This document shows positions 768 to 23,799 of a stretch of 23,799 nucleotides of DNA, piece after piece. The notes beneath the pieces were generated by a model, which did not search any database, was not told where the DNA came from, and was given only the letters and a program-made list of their open reading frames with translations. Origin of the DNA: a virus. Within the stretch, counting starts at the first letter, position 1. Every line of letters starts with the position of its first letter. Made by a program: the position numbers and the translations under genes. The stretch spans positions 1 to 23,799 of the IMG/VR virus record IMGVR_UViG_3300043424_000253; one strand, written 5' to 3'.

Positions 768-958
768 TGGACCGACTCCCGGACAATAGCGTCGAGCACC
801 TCGCGACGATTGATAGGCACATTTCTCGGCCCCTCAATCACGAGCTTTGCCCCCTTCCGCGTTTTGGTGAGTTTGATGCTGATCTGCTCCTCCACCTTGT
901 GCGGATCGCCGATCACAATCTCCTGATTCCACTCACGACTTAGCACCAATCTACCCAC
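764..958 (-). CDS. csrA: CsrA/RsmA-family RNA-binding translational regulator
   Basis: The 64-residue product aligns end to end with CsrA. RLVLSRE at 3-9 and EIVIGD at 13-18 match the LILTRR...LMIGD start of E. coli CsrA. GPRNVPINRREVLDAI at 43-58 matches APKEVSVHREEIYQRI. CsrA dimers bind GGA motifs in mRNA leaders and block or stabilise messages. Arg51 corresponds to the key RNA-binding Arg44, and Arg8 to Arg6. Two things differ: the equivalent of Arg7 is Glu9, and about five extra residues lie between the IGD motif and the GPRNV segment. The start is a GTG at 958, chosen because AAGGAGG sits five bases upstream. The gene overlaps the nuclease gene by 8 bases and is coupled to the next gene by GTGA. 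A phage-borne copy could redirect host or phage translation. Confidence 0.9.
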   Translation of the reverse strand: MGRLVLSREWNQEIVIGDPHKVEEQISIKLTKTRKGAKLVIEGPRNVPINRREVLDAIVRESVQ

Positions 959-1277
959 GTCTGCCTCCTTCCCTGGCCACCAATAGAATAGTATCCCAAT
1001 CCTCCGGCCTCCATACTGGACTGCCAGAGGCTTTCAGCCACTCCGCCTGATCCGCTGAAAGCTTGCCTTTTTCTACCTTCAGCTCCGCCATAATAACCAC
1101 ACCGCCACGCGCGGCGATTATGTCCGGCAATCCAGCATGGCCCTCATACGCTGTGCGCCAGCCCCGAGCCGTACGCGCAGGGCGAATGTGGCACACCCTC
1201 CAGCCGTACAACTGAAATAGTGCCACGACCGCCGACGTGAATTCAGCCTCGGTAATACCGCCGCGACTATTCGGCAT
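951..1277 (-). CDS. VRR-NUC / PD-(D/E)XK family nuclease
   Basis: From the ATG at 1277 the product is 108 residues, the size of stand-alone phage VRR-NUC proteins. An early acidic helix contains TEAEF (9-13). The catalytic core is GLPDII (49-54) followed by MAELKVEKGKLSADQAEWL (63-81), giving the set Asp52, Glu65, Lys67 and Gln77 expected for PD-(D/E)XK enzymes. The family includes structure-specific nucleases and Holliday-junction resolvase-like enzymes, so a role in phage DNA branch processing is likely. The ATG overlaps the end of a tiny membrane-peptide gene. An in-frame GTG at 1313 would add 12 residues but has no better ribosome site. The gene ends 8 bases inside the CsrA gene. Confidence 0.88.
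   Translation of the reverse strand: MPNSRGGITEAEFTSAVVALFQLYGWRVCHIRPARTARGWRTAYEGHAGLPDIIAARGGVVIMAELKVEKGKLSADQAEWLKASGSPVWRPEDWDTILLVAREGGRRG
964..970 (-). promoter_or_regulatory. Strong Shine-Dalgarno site deciding the GTG start of the CsrA gene
   Basis: On the minus strand the sequence reads AAGGAGGCAGACGTG, a perfect anti-16S match with five bases before GTG. It lies inside the 3' end of the nuclease gene. The GGA core is also the type of motif CsrA binds, so self-regulation is conceivable. Confidence 0.75.
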
Positions 1278-1350
1278 CGGGGTCGTCACAGAGAGCCGCG
1301 ACCACGACCGCACCCACGAGGAGCATCAGGTATCCTGCCAGCTCAATCAT
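1267..1350 (-). CDS. Tiny predicted membrane peptide (27 aa)
   Basis: The ATG at 1350 opens a 27-codon frame ending in TAG. The peptide begins MIELAGYLMLLVGAVVVAAL, a single hydrophobic helix, followed by an acidic tail CDDPDAE. GGGAG lies six bases before the start. The gene begins within the last codons of another tiny membrane peptide (8-base overlap) and its end overlaps the nuclease start by 11 bases. This chain of overlaps, the hydrophobic helix and the charged tail argue that it is translated. The function is unknown; small phage membrane peptides may act in lysis timing, exclusion or membrane anchoring. Confidence 0.55.
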   Translation of the reverse strand: MIELAGYLMLLVGAVVVAALCDDPDAE

Positions 1351-4317: not shown

Positions 4318-4649
4318 TCGATTTCGATCCCTGTTGTAATCGCAATCCGCTTCAGTGTCATCGTGAGATCCACTAACGCCATCCGCTGGACGCCCGCCGC
4401 GTCAAAGCCGCTGACCGGCCGCGTGTCCGTCAAGGCCCTGCCAGTCATGCACCGATGAAGGGCGTCCTGTCGCTCCTGCAGGAGCTTTATTTGCTTCTTC
4501 ATCTCCGACAAAATCCCACGCAAGGCGTCCCTCTGGAGTCCGCATCTGTCCGCGGGTTCGGGCGCTTCCGTCTGTGTAGTACTCGCTGCGGAACTCGATG
4601 CCGTCGCCGAGATCGGCTCTGGTGACACTGGCCAAATAGACTCGTTCAT
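4314..4649 (-). CDS. Predicted coiled-coil protein (111 aa), overlaps a membrane-protein gene in another frame
   Basis: The ATG at 4649 is preceded by GGAGGCGGTAA, a strong ribosome site with six-base spacing, and the end is coupled to the next gene by ATGA. Residues 1-35 are low-complexity Ser/Thr/Ala/Pro. Residues ~38-68 form an amphipathic helix (RDALRGILSEMKKQIKLLQE) likely to be a short coiled coil. A second helical stretch follows (QRMALVDLTMTLKRIAI). Its first 248 bases are shared, in a different frame, with the end of the upstream membrane-protein gene. The ribosome site and 3' coupling make this the better supported of the two frames in the shared segment. Function unknown. Confidence 0.7.
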   Translation of the reverse strand: MNESIWPVSPEPISATASSSAASTTQTEAPEPADRCGLQRDALRGILSEMKKQIKLLQERQDALHRCMTGRALTDTRPVSGFDAAGVQRMALVDLTMTLKRIAITTGIEIE

Positions 4650-4875
4650 TTACCGCCTCCGATTGATTCTGCTTGCTCAAAATGACCTGTTCACACACCC
4701 GCACCGAATGCGACGAGAAAGCGCTGAGGATTGCTGGACACATCAGGACCAACCCCTTCCCCAGCCACTGCAAATCCATCACCTGTCGATAGCACGACAG
4801 GATCCAGATTCCCGCCGCAAAACACGTCCACGCAATCGCCATGCACTGCAGGAGCTCACGAGATAGATCAATCAT
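4402..4875 (-). CDS. Two-helix membrane protein with soluble C-terminal tail (holin candidate)
   Basis: The ATG at 4875 overlaps the preceding small membrane gene as ATGA. The 157-residue product has two hydrophobic segments, ~11-29 (CMAIAWTCFAAGIWILSCY) and ~37-55 (WLGKGLVLMCPAILSAFSS). A 100-residue hydrophilic tail follows, including RADLGDGIEFRSEYYTDGSA. Two close membrane helices next to another tiny membrane protein is a common holin arrangement, but no endolysin lies beside it, so lysis is only a suggestion. The last 248 bases overlap the 111-residue gene in another frame; the reading frame stays protein-like to its stop, so both may be used. Confidence 0.6.
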   Translation of the reverse strand: MIDLSRELLQCMAIAWTCFAAGIWILSCYRQVMDLQWLGKGLVLMCPAILSAFSSHSVRVCEQVILSKQNQSEAVNERVYLASVTRADLGDGIEFRSEYYTDGSARTRGQMRTPEGRLAWDFVGDEEANKAPAGATGRPSSVHDWQGLDGHAAGQRL

Positions 4876-5060
4876 GATAAGAGACTCACTCCGTAGCATG
4901 TGGCAACAAACGCGATTCCCCAGCCGATCGCGCGCACGACCCACCGTAGGTCGCCGCCGACTGTGGATAGCAGGCGAGACCACGCGCCCTCGCTGACGGA
5001 CAACTTGCGCTTGCCGTCGTCGTAGTCCACTCCTGCCTGCTGTTCTGGTTTTTCGTCCAC
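4872..5060 (-). CDS. Small single-span membrane protein (62 aa)
   Basis: The hydrophilic N-terminal 38 residues (MDEKPEQQAGVDYDDGKRKL) precede one hydrophobic helix, WVVRAIGWGIAFVATCYGVS, at ~40-59. I chose the GTG at 5060, which has AAGG eight bases upstream; a TTG at 5117 in the same frame would add 19 residues but lacks a ribosome site. An ATG at 5061-5063 belongs to a different frame whose product is not protein-like. The end is coupled (ATGA) to the two-helix membrane protein, so the two probably act together, perhaps as holin and antiholin. That pairing is inference. Confidence 0.6.
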   Translation of the reverse strand: MDEKPEQQAGVDYDDGKRKLSVSEGAWSRLLSTVGGDLRWVVRAIGWGIAFVATCYGVSLLS

Positions 5061-5141
5061 ATTGCGGCCCTTGTCTTGTGTGTGGCCCGTGTATACAGAA
5101 ATCTCACGCCGCCGCAAGCCCGGAAACTCAATCCGCGAATT

Positions 5142-17660: not shown

Positions 17661-19720
17661 AATCGCACCTCCGTTTTTCGCTTGATTTTTCGCTTCCGCC
17701 GTCGCTCCGCACCGTCTGCAATCTCGGGGACATTGCATCCGAGGATGCTGCCCAAAACAAGGCACCCGACCATTGTATCGAACCAGTGATTGTCATTGCC
17801 GGGCCTGAGCCTCCACTCCATGACCGTGCGGCCTCGGCCCTCGGTCTGGATGGCGTATTCAGATGTAATATGCTCCGCCCACATGCGATGCTTTCCGCTG
17901 TAGGTGGTGATGGCTCCGGGGTGTCCGATCTTGATGGCGAGCTGGTCATGAACGTTGGTCTTCCAGAAATTCACGTCGCTGATGACCCCTCTGACGTCCG
18001 CCGCGCTTTTGCGTTTGGTAATGACCCAGCCTAACCCCACTCTGGCGCCGGGATCATACTTGCGTTCTTGGATCGGCTTGTCCGCTGCGCGGTATGATTG
18101 CCCCATGTAGGCCATCAGGCGTGAGGCGTTTTTGGATCTTGCAAGCGCCTGCCGGACTATCTCGGTTTTCCATCTGGCGTCAAACGCCACCAGCTCCAGA
18201 GGGACCACGCCGCCGTCCTCGCTCTTCCACTCTTGCGAGAACAACCAATCCGCCAAGTCTGTAATGCCCTGCGCCAGCGCCGCCATGTCTCCGGCCTGCG
18301 GGTATTTGTGGCCCAGTTTCTTGCGTGCCTCTCGCAGGGTGAAATATGGCTCATCCTGCTCTGGGTATGTGCCGTAGCGTATAACATGGACCGATCCGTC
18401 ATCCTTGACGGCCGCGACTGTGTAATACAAGAGAGACTGCTGGACGTCGCAATCTGCCACGAGTTTGTGATATCCCCTCGGGACCACGCCGCGATTGAGG
18501 GCGATGTTTCGGCAGTCGGCGAGATCCTGCGACGATAGCCACGCGCGTGACTCATTGCTGTCTCTCTCTGGCTCGTTCTGCAGTTCGCTATAGAATCCGC
18601 TCCGGCTGCGATAGTACCACTCCATTGCGTGCTGGATGGCACTGATCTCTCCGCGATCTTTGGCGAAGCGAGGCTTCCACGATGCCTCGGCGCCAGCGTC
18701 CATTGCCTTGCGGTGTTTTCGGTAGTGCTTCGTGGCGTCGCGGATGTCCCCGTGAGCTCTGAGGGATGCCGACCGGATTTCGGCGTACTGGCTCCATAGT
18801 TTCATGGCCTCATCGTTGGGCATGCTCCTGAGGAACTTGCGCCGGATGCCACACCAGTCAGGATTGATCTCGGGGTTCAGCAACCTATCGGCCGCGTCGT
18901 CTGACCGGATGACCGTGCATGTCACCAGGGCACAGAAACTACTGTCTGGGCCTGCCATGCCCACGAGGTCATTCTGGATAACCTCTGTGCGTGAATAGCA
19001 CTGCAGAGGACTCATGGCCGATTCGCGCGTCTGAAAGTCGTCGCACAACAGCATCGAGGGCCGAATCACTCGACCATCCGGGAGTGTGTGCAATGCTCCG
19101 CGGACTGCCTCCATAAGACCGGCTGCCGAGATGATCGCACCAGTTCCGGGGTAGTCTGGTAACGTCGCGAAGCATACCGTTTTCGTGCTTGTCAGAAGAT
19201 TCGTCGGCATGCCTTGGTAGAGCTGACCGCGGGCTCTGTTGGCGACACCTTCCAGCATGCGAAACGGGTAGCAGATTTCCGGGAATAGCTCATAGAGAAT
19301 CTGATTGTGTGAGACCTCCGTCACGATGTCGCGGAGGAGCTTTTCGGCCTTGCCGCTGTTGGCTGCTGCGATGACTGCGAATGAGTGTTTGCGGATGCAG
19401 ATGGACCAAAGCATCGCCCGCATGACGATCGTGGATTTTCCCGTGCCGCGCGGCATGCCGATAGCGCGGAATCCACCCGAGAGGATGACCCGCTGCAGTT
19501 CGGTTATGAGCAGGATATGGTCTTCAGACCACCCGAGCCTGAAGGCGTTCGGGAAACACGTTTCGAGAAACGTCTGCAAGCAGGTTTCGCACTTCTTCCG
19601 GAGGCGGGCGTCGGCACAGCTGGGGATGTCTCCGATATCTCTACCTGCGGCGGATTTTTCGCGCGAACGTTTCGCCGAATCATCCTTGTGCCGTTGGTAT
19701 TTGTCAGAGATGGCCACCAC
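17657..19720 (-). CDS. Terminase large subunit, probably GpA-like
   Basis: The GTG at 19720 overlaps the methyltransferase stop (TAGTG). The 687-residue protein has a motor ATPase with Walker A GMPRGTGKST at 88-97 (Lys95) and Walker B SMLLCDDFQ at 222-230 (Asp227, Asp228). The nuclease domain follows, with LVADCDVQQ (Asp423, Asp425), LVAFDARWKTE (Asp514) and NDNHWFDTMVG (Asp643/Asp648), spacing like the GpA family. The C-terminus is basic (RRRKRKIKRKTEVR), suitable for portal or DNA contact. Lambda gpA is of similar size (641). It pumps DNA into proheads and cuts concatemers. A cysteine-rich patch near 35-55 (SCADARLRKKCETCLQTFLE) may bind metal. Confidence 0.9.
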   Translation of the reverse strand: MVAISDKYQRHKDDSAKRSREKSAAGRDIGDIPSCADARLRKKCETCLQTFLETCFPNAFRLGWSEDHILLITELQRVILSGGFRAIGMPRGTGKSTIVMRAMLWSICIRKHSFAVIAAANSGKAEKLLRDIVTEVSHNQILYELFPEICYPFRMLEGVANRARGQLYQGMPTNLLTSTKTVCFATLPDYPGTGAIISAAGLMEAVRGALHTLPDGRVIRPSMLLCDDFQTRESAMSPLQCYSRTEVIQNDLVGMAGPDSSFCALVTCTVIRSDDAADRLLNPEINPDWCGIRRKFLRSMPNDEAMKLWSQYAEIRSASLRAHGDIRDATKHYRKHRKAMDAGAEASWKPRFAKDRGEISAIQHAMEWYYRSRSGFYSELQNEPERDSNESRAWLSSQDLADCRNIALNRGVVPRGYHKLVADCDVQQSLLYYTVAAVKDDGSVHVIRYGTYPEQDEPYFTLREARKKLGHKYPQAGDMAALAQGITDLADWLFSQEWKSEDGGVVPLELVAFDARWKTEIVRQALARSKNASRLMAYMGQSYRAADKPIQERKYDPGARVGLGWVITKRKSAADVRGVISDVNFWKTNVHDQLAIKIGHPGAITTYSGKHRMWAEHITSEYAIQTEGRGRTVMEWRLRPGNDNHWFDTMVGCLVLGSILGCNVPEIADGAERRRKRKIKRKTEVRL

Positions 19721-21075
19721 TAAAACAGCACCCCCTGCGCCAGTCGCTCGATTGTGATTCGGCAGTAGTCCTCACTCAGCTCCGCGCCGATGTATCGGCA
19801 GTGCTCCGCCCGTGATGCCACCGCTGTTGTGCCTGAGCCGTTGAATGGATCGAGCACAATTCCGCCCATTGGACACACCAACCGCACAAGGTATCTCATC
19901 AAATCCACGGGCTTGACCGTGGGGTGGTTGTTGCCAGCGCCGCGGTCTGACTTGTCTGCCTTCGCTGTGTAGAAAAATCGGGCTGCTGATTGCTCGTCGT
20001 CCGTCTCCGGAAACAACCCCACGACTTCATCACTGCCATCGTGAATCAGGTTGGCGGGCCAGCGGCCTTTGCTGCTGTCAAAGTCTGCGGACGCACTCGG
20101 CGAGGCATAAGCGCTCCCATGGCTTCGTGTGCTGTTGGCCAGACCATAATCCGTGCGTTCACGACCCTCCACCCTGCACGCATCCACATTGATCCCGCCC
20201 GTGCCGTACCGCAGGACGTTCGCCGCCACGGTTCCGGATAGGGGTTTGCGTGCGACTGTGATTGGTTCGAGGGCGGGTTTTAGGGCAGTGCCCCAGCCTG
20301 CCCATTGCTTCGCGGCTTCGGTTGACGGGGCGGTGATTGCCACGTCCACTTTTATCATCTTTTCAGCCACGTCAAAACACGACTTTCTGCCGTCTGCGTG
20401 TTGCGACCCAGTTTTGTAGCCCACCACCTCGCGTTTCAACCAGTTGGGACCTGGCTGCCCCTTGCTGGCATTCTTGTCTATCAGTAAACGGTAAATTTCT
20501 TGCGGAACGTCGTCGATACTCAACTTAAATAAATCCAGCAACACGTCAACTTGTTCGAGTGTCGGAACGCGTGGGGTGGAGCCTGGAGTAATTGTAAATA
20601 ATGCCTGCCCAATGTTGACCGTTCCGAATCGCTCTTCAACTTGTCTGCGCGTGATGCCTGTCGCTTGGCGTGTCGCCTCCATCCACCGCACGACTTGTTC
20701 AATTTCGTCGCGGTCGTCTTTCATACGATCAATCGCCTTTGACACGTCTAGCGACTTCGGAAACCCACTGCCGTAAACCCAAGCAATCATATCCCGGATC
20801 TCAAACCCCGCATCCTCAATCCGCACCGCCATCCGGTGTTGTGTCCGAGTGCCAGCGAATGCAAGCAGGTGACCGCCGGGCTTCAGGACCCGCAGACACT
20901 CCTGCCAGACTTCGACCGTGGGAACGTCGTAATCCCATCGCTTACCCATGAAGGATAGGCCATAGGGCGGGTCAGTGACCACCGCATCGACTGAGGCGTC
21001 TGGTAGTGCGATCATCGCCTCCCGGCAGTCCCCGTGAAACAGCGTGATGCCTGCGTGCTCGTAGTATGGTTTCAC
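19720..21075 (-). CDS. DNA methyltransferase (N6-adenine or N4-cytosine, beta class order) with inserted helical domain
   Basis: The start is GTG at 21075 (GTGA overlap; GGAG upstream). Motif IV, TDPPYG, is at 34-39, and the AdoMet site DPFNGSGTT at 409-417, the order of beta-class enzymes. Residues ~125-195 form an insertion, beginning WMEATRQATGITRRQVEERF and continuing to VPTLEQVDVLLDLFKLSIDD. It resembles a helix-turn-helix domain often found in phage methyltransferases and may act in target recognition. TARFFYTAKA-like sequence and NNHPTVKPVDLMRYL near ~380-395 are typical. No restriction partner is nearby, so it is an orphan enzyme, probably protecting phage DNA or altering host methylation. 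The base modified cannot be decided from the sequence. Confidence 0.92.
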   Translation of the reverse strand: MKPYYEHAGITLFHGDCREAMIALPDASVDAVVTDPPYGLSFMGKRWDYDVPTVEVWQECLRVLKPGGHLLAFAGTRTQHRMAVRIEDAGFEIRDMIAWVYGSGFPKSLDVSKAIDRMKDDRDEIEQVVRWMEATRQATGITRRQVEERFGTVNIGQALFTITPGSTPRVPTLEQVDVLLDLFKLSIDDVPQEIYRLLIDKNASKGQPGPNWLKREVVGYKTGSQHADGRKSCFDVAEKMIKVDVAITAPSTEAAKQWAGWGTALKPALEPITVARKPLSGTVAANVLRYGTGGINVDACRVEGRERTDYGLANSTRSHGSAYASPSASADFDSSKGRWPANLIHDGSDEVVGLFPETDDEQSAARFFYTAKADKSDRGAGNNHPTVKPVDLMRYLVRLVCPMGGIVLDPFNGSGTTAVASRAEHCRYIGAELSEDYCRITIERLAQGVLF

Positions 21076-21950
21076 CGCAGGAACTCCCTGATCTCCTCAA
21101 TCCGTGCTGCGTCCGCTGTGGCCTTGTCCGCGCATCTCAGGATACCCACGACTCGCCCGGCTGAATCCAGCACCGGGCCGCCACTCATGCCGCTGATCGA
21201 GTCTGGGCGTGGACTGCGGGAAACCAGAGGCAGGACGCGCACGCCGTTGATTCTGGCTATGCCGTCCCGTCTCTGGACTGGGAGGAGTTGCGGATCCGTC
21301 CCGCGAAGGTATCCCGCCAAATACGCAGGCTCAGAGTCCCTCCCAAGCATGGCGCCGAATGCCACTGGGAGGGACTCGCTGAGCCGCAGCACAGAGAGAT
21401 CCAGCTTGGCGTCAGAGCGAATGACCGCGCATCCTATCCGGCGCCCGTCGACTGTCGCTGTGATGCCTGCTGTCTCTCCGTGGTGAGCGCATGTGAGAAT
21501 TGTATCGAGGCTGATGACTACCCCTGACCATCGAGAGGAAGGGCCTTCGAGGGCCACGACTGATTGTGGGATGACGTGCCATTCTGGGGCGCTGGAGGCT
21601 GCTGGATTGCTCGCCTGTGGTGGCTCTGGCTCCGCTGGGATGGCCCTGCGAATTTGCTCGACCGTGACTGCGCCCGTCCATTTTGCAATCCGTGTCTGGT
21701 CCGACTTGCGGCATAGCCAGAATGTGGGGTAACGGTCGACCTGAGCCTTCCATCGCGGCTCCTCATCGATATCCACAATCTTGACGGGGTAGGCTGCCTG
21801 CAGAGCTGCGAGGCCGTTGCGCTTGAATTGCTGGCATGGGCCGCACCATCGAGCCGTGAAGAACACGACGTAGTGGCCCTCGGGCTGCGAAAGCTCAAAG
21901 CGCCATTCGTCGCCGGCAAGAAACGACGCGAGGAGAAGTAGTAGGCTCAT
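21072..21950 (-). CDS. Exported thioredoxin-trypsin fusion protein
   Basis: From the ATG at 21950 (ATGA overlap with the papain-like gene) the protein has 292 residues. MSLLLLLASFLAG is a short export signal. A thioredoxin domain at ~15-105 contains WCGPC (35-39) and the cis-proline YPTFW (74-78). A Pro-rich linker (~105-122) leads to a trypsin-like domain with TCAHHGE (His156), KLDLSVLRL (Asp184) and SGMSGGPV (Ser256), a complete catalytic triad. It probably acts in the periplasm or outside, reducing or isomerising disulfides and cutting protein. A longer in-frame start at 22100 overlaps the upstream gene by 150 bases and loses the signal, so I reject it. Confidence 0.9.
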   Translation of the reverse strand: MSLLLLLASFLAGDEWRFELSQPEGHYVVFFTARWCGPCQQFKRNGLAALQAAYPVKIVDIDEEPRWKAQVDRYPTFWLCRKSDQTRIAKWTGAVTVEQIRRAIPAEPEPPQASNPAASSAPEWHVIPQSVVALEGPSSRWSGVVISLDTILTCAHHGETAGITATVDGRRIGCAVIRSDAKLDLSVLRLSESLPVAFGAMLGRDSEPAYLAGYLRGTDPQLLPVQRRDGIARINGVRVLPLVSRSPRPDSISGMSGGPVLDSAGRVVGILRCADKATADAARIEEIREFLR

Positions 21951-22735
21951 GGCTTCACCGCTGACATTGAGACCGGGAACACGCAATCGTTGGCAATCAT
22001 TTTCTGGCCTCGCAAGATCCCGAATCCGTTGGCGCCCCATCCTTGCCACTGGTTCCGGATCCTGATCGCGATGGCACCATCCAGCCAAATGGCCTCGCAC
22101 GCCGTGACCTCATGCCGCCACCAGTCGAGGCCGATGGCTCCAGCATAGCCGCGGAGGAGCATCGAGACCAACTGAGCGACCGACCGTGGTTTACACTCAA
22201 CCCACTCCGTGCATTTATTGGCGCTGGCGAGTAGCTTCATTTCTGGACTGTCGTAGCCTCGCAGAATCTCGGGGACCCTGCCGTAGTCGGCCTCTGTGGC
22301 GATGCCGTTCTGCCCGATGTATCGGACTGCCTCCATGCCCCAGCCGCCGACGTTGCGGCCGCGCTTGATGACCGCGCCGGGCTGAGCTGCTGCCAAGGCT
22401 CGATACGGGTATCCCGATCGGACACGGTTGAGCTCCATGGCATGGACCGGGGCGTAGATCCAGCAGTAGTTCAATCGGCCTTGGTTTTTCGGAGGAATCT
22501 TGTAGTGGCTGACCAAATCAGACACGCGCGACTGGGTGGCCTGTTGCTCCTCGATGCGGGCTTGCCACTCGCTTTCGGGAATTAGAAGCCTGTCGTCAAA
22601 TGGCACTGCGACCCCACCGTAGCCGTAGCCGTCGACGTTGGGCCGATCTGTGAGATCGAGGCCCGTTGTGCCGCCGGGAATTAGCGCCCCGTCGTCGAGG
22701 ATAGGCTCCATCCGATAGACTGTTGAACTGCTCAT
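21947..22735 (-). CDS. Papain-like (C1 family) cysteine peptidase or pseudo-peptidase
   Basis: The 262-residue product starts with ATG overlapping the upstream stop (ATGA). It has the papain order: oxyanion Gln85 and nucleophile Cys91 in NQGRLNYCWIYA, His208 in LDWWRHEVTA, and Asn228 in IRNQWQGWGANGFG, the counterpart of the N-S-W-G-x-x-W-G motif. All catalytic residues are present. The first ~80 residues could be a propeptide-like or binding segment (QATQSRVSDLVSHYKIP). No signal peptide is seen, unlike its neighbours. It may act on a phage or host protein in the cytoplasm, or be packaged. Papain-like enzymes are uncommon in phage late operons. Confidence 0.88.
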   Translation of the reverse strand: MSSSTVYRMEPILDDGALIPGGTTGLDLTDRPNVDGYGYGGVAVPFDDRLLIPESEWQARIEEQQATQSRVSDLVSHYKIPPKNQGRLNYCWIYAPVHAMELNRVRSGYPYRALAAAQPGAVIKRGRNVGGWGMEAVRYIGQNGIATEADYGRVPEILRGYDSPEMKLLASANKCTEWVECKPRSVAQLVSMLLRGYAGAIGLDWWRHEVTACEAIWLDGAIAIRIRNQWQGWGANGFGILRGQKMIANDCVFPVSMSAVKP

Positions 22736-23529
22736 AGCTTGCCGTCCTTTGCGTTCTGGAGATCCTGCAGGAGTTGGGGCTGTGTCGTGATCGGCCGTGT
22801 GGTTACTTTGGCGCCCGTGATGACCACCAGCTGCGGGCCCGCAGGAATTCCTGAGCCGATGTCAGACCAGAGCTTCCGCCAGACCTGCGACTCTGTGGCG
22901 AGCGTGTCCGGATCGTCGAGGCTGCTGCGATCCCACCGGCGCCAGCCTGCCCGCCCATCCGTGGGCGTTGTGTTGGCATCAAGCCATGACAGAACTGGCA
23001 CTGAGTTGACCGCGGCCAATGCGCTCACCGCGTCGGACTGGTCGATCAGGAGCATGACCTGCAAGCCTGATGGAGGTTCTGCTGGCGATGGCTGTGGCGA
23101 TGGCTGTGGTGGTGGCCTCGGGCCTGCGCCGCTGATGGTGAGGGCTTGCCGGATGACTGGGCGGTCGATGGCCTGCGGAATCAGGAGGAGCTCACACTGG
23201 CCAGCCTGCGAGGCCGTGACGATGTAGAGCCACTTGCCGGAGTAACTGCGAGTCTCGACCGCCCCACCGCCAGCGAATTGTCCGCGGAGTTTGATCGGGC
23301 CTTCCGTCTCCTCGATCTCCACGACGCCCACGGGACTGGCGAGCACCCTGAGCCGCTCCGCTGACTCAATCACGTACCACTGCTGAGGCGTGATCTCGTT
23401 GACCGGCTGTGGCGTTGTGATGGCCTGTGGTTGGGGAGAGTCCGGCGATACCGGAAGAACTATTCCGGACTCATCCCCGACCACGATCGCACACAGGCAG
23501 ACCGCGAGTGTAGCGAGTATCGCACGCAT
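22732..23529 (-). CDS. Exported proline-rich protein of unknown function
   Basis: I choose the ATG at 23529 because it overlaps the upstream stop as TGATG and gives a clean signal peptide, MRAILATLAVCLCAIVVGDE. The 265-residue protein has a beta-rich part (~50-132) including SYSGKWLYIVTASQAGQCEL, possibly an Ig-like domain. A Pro-rich linker follows at 136-154, then a C-terminal domain (GLQVMLLIDQSDAVSALAAV, later GRAGWRRWDRSS). The ATGA end couples it to the papain-like gene. It is probably a secreted or periplasmic partner of the downstream thioredoxin-protease. I recognise no enzyme motif. Confidence 0.75.
   Translation of the reverse strand: MRAILATLAVCLCAIVVGDESGIVLPVSPDSPQPQAITTPQPVNEITPQQWYVIESAERLRVLASPVGVVEIEETEGPIKLRGQFAGGGAVETRSYSGKWLYIVTASQAGQCELLLIPQAIDRPVIRQALTISGAGPRPPPQPSPQPSPAEPPSGLQVMLLIDQSDAVSALAAVNSVPVLSWLDANTTPTDGRAGWRRWDRSSLDDPDTLATESQVWRKLWSDIGSGIPAGPQLVVITGAKVTTRPITTQPQLLQDLQNAKDGKL
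23083..23106. repeat. Two tandem copies of a 12-base unit coding for the Pro-rich linker
   Basis: TGGCGATGGCTG occurs twice back to back (23083-23094 and 23095-23106). On the coding strand each copy supplies one QPSP-like unit. Such slippage-prone repeats often vary in number. Confidence 0.8.
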
Positions 23530-23799
23530 CAGAGAGCCGCCTTGCATAAGCCGTATGTCGTCTCTTCGTCCGTCGCCAGAGCCTCGGCGAGGATGCCGTC
23601 TGCGAGAGCTGCGGTCTCGTCAACTGTGAGCTGTCGCCCCTCTTTGGCTGCGCCGAATTTGATGGAGCGTGAGAGCTTGGCCCGTGTCCGCTCTGGGTTC
23701 CGCGAATACATGCGGCGGATGCGGTCGTAGGCCGCGGACGTCGCGACCTCATGGTCCTGCTGGAAGCACTTGAGGATTCCGGGAAGAACTGTGGTGATG
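23529..23799 (-). CDS. Partial hypothetical protein cut by the right window edge
   Basis: The frame is open from the window edge to TGA at 23529-23531, giving ~89 codons of C-terminus. It reads, from the edge, TVLPGILKCFQQDHEVATSA, then DRIRRMYSRNPERTRAKLSR, and ends in ETTYGLCKAAL. The segment is helical and basic, possibly nucleic-acid binding. Its stop overlaps the next start by one base (TGATG). An internal ATG at 23711 exists, but the frame continues past it without a stop, so this is probably the end of a longer gene. No family is recognised. Confidence 0.65.
   Translation of the reverse strand, partial: ITTVLPGILKCFQQDHEVATSAAYDRIRRMYSRNPERTRAKLSRSIKFGAAKEGRQLTVDETAALADGILAEALATDEETTYGLCKAAL

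Follow-up and report, generated by a model that had tools for sequence, protein, structure and literature searches.

The viral DNA analysed here (the window, 23,799 nucleotides) carries two adjacent genes, coding for a protein with a C-terminal thioredoxin fold (P3) and a papain-like cysteine peptidase (C1), that form the obligate core of a gene module present in dozens of viruses, some at least of which are planctomycete viruses. An earlier note, made from the sequence alone, had described P3, C1 and a downstream thioredoxin-trypsin fusion as an uncharacterised system. The module is real and we found no description of it, but its obligate part is P3-C1, and the fusion is one of several alternatives in a third slot. 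We tentatively read the module as a late envelope-breaching (exit or lysis) device of Planctomycetota phages, acting by reduction and proteolysis on a disulfide-rich protein layer, and we rate this reading a little short of an even chance.

Gene organisation and protein architecture in the window phage

The three genes were identified as open reading frames on the minus strand (Table 1) and are tightly coupled upstream of the terminase gene, as the earlier note had claimed: 4-nt overlaps join P3 to C1, C1 to the fusion gene, and the fusion gene to an N6/N4 DNA methyltransferase gene, which in turn overlaps the terminase gene by 1 nt. This chain of overlaps down to the terminase places the trio in a late operon. 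The methyltransferase gene also lies between the fusion and terminase genes in a second phage, L016. A near-identical contig extends the window 3 kb upstream and contains a DnaB-like helicase gene (assigned by reading), a DUF1353 gene and the 146-aa gene (U146). Homologues of U146 are found immediately upstream of P3 in L032, L046, L047, L048, L050 and L073. The DUF1353 gene (tail assembly chaperone in PHROGs) is located two genes upstream of P3 in L044 (2326-2727), and it closely precedes the module in L046 and L050 too. Elsewhere, the window contains a gene similar to VRR-NUC and Holliday junction resolvases.

Table 1. Features of the P3-C1 module and other genes in the window.
Feature	Position	Strand	Basis or remark
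P3: hydrophobic N-terminal signal, beta-sandwich (~44-132), Pro-rich linker, thioredoxin fold (~150-264)	22732..23529	-	ORF, 44-homologue alignment, AlphaFold, VIA-align
C1: papain-like cysteine peptidase, 262 aa, without signal sequence; Gln85, Cys91, His208, Asn228	21947..22735	-	Conserved residues and papain/cathepsin fold
LIPESEW segment, C1 residues 51-57	22565..22585		Conserved motif
Thioredoxin-trypsin fusion, 292 aa, short hydrophobic leader, ATG at 21950	21072..21950	-	Pfam and motif reading
Thioredoxin domain of the fusion, residues 11-104, WCGPC at 35-39	21639..21920	-	PF00085, 7e-11
Trypsin_2 domain of the fusion, residues 142-270, His156-Asp184-Ser256	21141..21527	-	PF13365, 2e-12
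N6/N4 DNA methyltransferase	19720..21075		Overlaps fusion and terminase genes
U146 (146-aa gene), 3' part, hydrophobic segment, adjoins P3 upstream	23529..23798	-	Complete in L044, 2908-3348
Two overlapping small membrane-protein genes (one-TM, two-TM), far end of late region	4402..5117	-	Homologues after thioredoxin gene: both in L046, two-TM in L050
VRR-NUC / Holliday-junction-resolvase-like gene	951..1313		phrog_93, 8e-10

C1 had been proposed to be a C1-type peptidase on account of four residues. In an alignment of 22 homologues Gln85, Cys91 and His208 were invariant and Asn228 was conserved in at least 90%. Structure prediction, proposed in the earlier note as a check, returned a papain/cathepsin fold for this protein: the AlphaFold model (pLDDT 83, pTM 0.85) matched cathepsin K and papain relatives, including plant ones (Foldseek E ~6e-10, probability 1.00), and the original assignment was therefore upheld. 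Since the PF00112 score of 14.8 bits (E 0.03) is under the cut-off of 20.7, we name C1 papain-like and regard it as a divergent family; PHROGs contained no family for either C1 or P3. C1 shares with papain/cathepsin C1A peptidases the fold, the catalytic Gln-Cys-His-Asn residues and an NSW motif, and differs from them in its subthreshold Pfam score, in having neither a secretion signal (no hydrophobic N-terminal signal was found) nor a recognised propeptide, and in a conserved N-terminal LIPESEW segment. This segment lies outside the catalytic core, is conserved at near active-site level and might be a docking or self-inhibition element.

Both domains of the fusion exceeded their Pfam cut-offs (thioredoxin, 42.4 bits against 23.5; Trypsin_2, 48.2 against 27.6), and the WCGPC motif and the complete His-Asp-Ser triad reported earlier were located, the triad being retained in L016. 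The signal attributed to this protein held in part: a hydrophobic leader is present, but it is short and has no basic start. With its two domains over the cut-offs and its active sites intact, the fusion resembles secreted thioredoxins and trypsin-2 (S1) peptidases; it differs from them in combining both domains in a single protein, in opposite orders in different phages, with C1 as a neighbour wherever it was found.

P3 had been described as an exported beta/Pro-rich protein. In its AlphaFold model a disordered signal region precedes a beta-sandwich, which is followed by a Pro-rich linker and a C-terminal thioredoxin fold of 115 residues, so that the hydrophobic N-terminus, the sandwich and the linker were confirmed, but the description was incomplete, having missed the thioredoxin fold. 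The C-terminal domain follows the order beta-alpha-beta-alpha-beta-beta-alpha and aligned over ~90 residues with many thioredoxins at VIA-align Z values of ~7.5-8.2, which are middling on the tool's own scale; we call the fold on the basis of the secondary-structure order and the consistency of the matches. This domain has no cysteines, and reading of the 44-homologue alignment showed that CxxC is absent from the window P3 and its relatives. As modelled, the domain is thus a thioredoxin by fold, not as a redox enzyme.

P3-C1 pairing and the variable third slot

Alignment-based scans identified 57 viral C1 loci and one more in a Planctomycetaceae MAG. In a set of 57 loci free of near-duplicates, an HMM detected P3 immediately upstream of C1, and in the same orientation, at 52. 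Among the other five, L061 and L064 were found by reading to carry divergent P3-type genes, L042 and L043 carry, also by reading, a TM-anchored P3 candidate of similar size upstream of C1, and L063 ends at a contig edge and is not assessable. P3 is thus upstream of C1 in all 56 assessable loci (52 by profile, four by reading). The reverse search, using a nine-row subset of the 44-row P3 alignment as query, recovered C1 downstream of P3 in 28 of 28 assessable loci, with ~16 contigs new with respect to the first set. An N-terminal hydrophobic segment is present on P3 at nearly all loci, and many P3 proteins have no beta-sandwich and keep the thioredoxin-fold domain alone.

Such tight pairing is also what would be expected if C1 were a cytosolic protease acting on the host and the P3 beta domain its chagasin-like inhibitor, and the P3 sandwich does show a weak fold likeness to amebosin, EhICP2 and chagasin. 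However, S-layer and other beta-sandwich domains score similarly, Pfam at E values up to 1 gave no match of this domain to chagasin-type inhibitors (I42), many P3 proteins have no sandwich at all, and P3 bears an export signal while C1 does not. A chagasin-type inhibitor role for P3 is therefore unsupported, and we consider an inhibitor or host-takeover pair highly improbable.

The packaging genes of the carriers differ: the window has a GpA-type terminase and a phrog_21 portal, and G021 a phrog_9 terminase and a phrog_12 portal. The module has no fixed place with respect to structural genes: it adjoins the terminase gene in the window, and capsid genes in L026 and L064. These neighbours would suit a role in morphogenesis, with the proteases and the thioredoxin maturing or folding virion proteins, but the inconstant position, the signal or TM segments of P3 and the thioredoxins, and the separate head maturation proteases of the window phage (phrog_53, 1.3e-58) and G021 make this very unlikely. 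For the window, we rejected head maturation by the trio as unlikely in view of the phrog_53 protease, which tells against the virion-maturation option raised in the earlier note.

The same three-gene order, which the earlier note had proposed to look for, recurs in L016, with identities of 69% for the fusion, 76% for C1 and 63% for P3. When cultured-phage records were searched by tblastn, neither C1 nor the fusion gave a match, and the terminase gave distant matches only. Pfam thioredoxins were counted in 50 full records: 13 contained one, and in 11 of these 13 it lies within 1 kb downstream of C1, against 0.22 expected. The redox-protease association is therefore systematic, not accidental. 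At other loci the third slot is occupied by a plain exported thioredoxin, by a CxxC protein too divergent for Pfam, or by a Cys-rich secreted protein. Secreted Cys-rich proteins with CPC..CxC clusters fill the slot in many phages, being found downstream of C1 in L024, L060, L065, L067 and L068, and several of these third-slot proteins possibly hold a degenerate thioredoxin-like segment. Third-slot proteins of L032, L034, L038, L066 and L069 have in common a His-rich motif, for example LHNxLHG or LHDxxH, which comes after the thioredoxin-like part and might form a metal site.

Trypsin_2 was detected in only three of the 50 records. The nearest relative of the thioredoxin half of the window fusion is the plain thioredoxin following C1 in L046 (35% over 154 residues). 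The order thioredoxin-trypsin occurs in the window and L016, and the order trypsin-thioredoxin in L055 and in L116, a planctomycete-chromosome locus whose thioredoxin half scores below the cut-off of Pfam and was assigned from WCGPC and position. The L055 and L116 fusions are related to each other (26% over 269 residues) and unrelated to the window arrangement; the L116 fusion found no match when used as query against viral contigs. The opposite, unrelated domain orders indicate that thioredoxin and trypsin have been joined at least twice beside C1.

Planctomycete chromosomes and a possible breach of the host envelope

In a sample of 392 genomes, all from Planctomycetota, C1 relatives were detected in four, two of them strong, one of these two being the Planctomycetaceae MAG. 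L116, a chromosome-sized contig, contains P3, C1 and the trypsin-thioredoxin fusion in that order, and L117 contains a P3-like gene, C1 and an exported thioredoxin. This recurrence in planctomycete chromosomes points to a role at the host envelope. The window phage itself may likewise have a planctomycete host. Older work described planctomycete envelopes of disulfide-stabilised protein rich in proline and cysteine (PMC3035269; PMC2754498), and an attack on such a layer fits an exported thiol reductase accompanied by proteases. Planctomycetes also possess peptidoglycan sacculi, which lysozyme breaks (PMC4432640), so that their lysis may take more than reduction and proteolysis.

According to the envelope-breaching reading, P3, exported or membrane-anchored, would display its thioredoxin-fold domain, which has no cysteines, on the outer side of the inner membrane. 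The exported thioredoxin, in this phage fused to trypsin, would reduce disulfides in the host envelope while the trypsin-type protease cuts envelope protein. C1 would build up in the cytosol and be let out late, presumably via a small membrane protein, to complete the breach. The thioredoxin may also hold the catalytic cysteine of C1 reduced outside the cell, in line with the redox control suggested in the earlier note. Of this picture, the domains, the conserved catalytic residues, the P3-C1 pairing, the thioredoxin linkage, the repeated fusion, the late-operon position and the occurrence in planctomycete chromosomes come from computation; export, enzyme activity, the host of the window phage, substrate, timing and lysis are inferred.

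Alternatively, the predicted export of proteases and a thiol reductase could serve to remove or disable a protein on the host surface, so that superinfection is blocked or released virions do not stick to debris, and a third slot that varies is expected if it tracks changing host surface proteins. Against this, the genes occupy a late-operon position, the invariant enzyme C1 is not exported, and the carriers have many different phage backbones, the module genes being mostly not temperate moron genes in the sample seen; surface remodelling is accordingly quite unlikely.

The envelope-breaching module would share with phage lysis cassettes (holin, endolysin, spanins) a late, co-transcribed gene set in which a single cytosolic enzyme is combined with exported or membrane proteins, and small TM genes adjoin it in L046 and L050. 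It differs from them in that no endolysin, holin or spanin family was recognised, and proteases and a thiol reductase take the place of the murein hydrolase. The genes of L046 are ordered DUF1353, U146, P3, C1, thioredoxin, one-TM gene and two-TM gene; the window carries the same genes as this cassette, but with the TM pair 16 kb from the trio. Small TM genes showed a modest enrichment upstream of P3 (22 of 56 loci, against 83 of 354 small genes). The small TM genes matched no holin family in PHROGs, and the window pair has no PHROG or Pfam family; the one-TM and two-TM proteins are candidate membrane partners of the module.

Pfam searches of ~50 related records, mostly fragments, detected none of six standard endolysin families above cut-off (Amidase_2, Peptidase_M15_3, SLT, CHAP, Phage_lysozyme and NLPC_P60). 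Scans of the window and L044 proteins recognised no endolysin family, and the Pfam families listed for G029 included no wall hydrolase. Phage_lysozyme and NLPC_P60 were absent too from eight control phages without C1; with such controls and fragmentary records, the missing endolysins are weak evidence and not decisive. They are nonetheless what would be expected if C1 itself were the peptidoglycan endolysin, a holin-released papain fold cutting stem peptides, with P3 and the thioredoxin aiding its action outside the cytosol. Of the enzymes in the module, C1 is the universal one; it has no signal, as in classical endolysins, and its putative substrate exists in planctomycetes. A precedent comes from methanogen phages, whose PeiW and PeiP peptidases lyse hosts with an unusual wall (PMC4592898). 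The Pei enzymes, however, cut the isopeptide bond of pseudomurein, whereas C1 is of the C1A papain type. We know of no thioredoxin or P3 partner of the Pei enzymes. The fold, the Gln/Cys/His/Asn residues and the NSW motif of C1 are those of protein-cutting C1A peptidases, not of NlpC/P60 or CHAP enzymes, no separate wall-binding domain is apparent, and partners such as trypsin and thioredoxin suggest that the substrate is protein. These features render a peptidoglycan endolysin unlikely.

In view of the peptidoglycan, the non-discriminating absence of endolysins and the lack of a recognised holin, a role of the module in lysis is kept as a tentative reading, at somewhat less than even probability. 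That planctomycete phages leave through a disulfide-crosslinked protein envelope by means of a dedicated reduce-and-cut machine, composed of a thioredoxin fold presented at the membrane, the papain-like peptidase and an exported thioredoxin that may or may not be fused to trypsin, replacing or supplementing a murein endolysin and representing a new phage-lysis chemistry, is a stronger proposal, which we regard as rather unlikely. The component families are known, and the literature searched, mostly outside subscription journals, contained no account of them in this fixed combination; the same searches gave no description of phage exit from planctomycetes. The P3-C1 pair offers a marker for candidate planctomycete viruses in metagenomes. 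If the reading is true, the coupling of disulfide reduction with proteolysis would mean that phage exit enzymes track unusual envelopes, it would provide tools for opening planctomycete cells, and it would open the disputed role of the protein layer in planctomycetes to direct tests.
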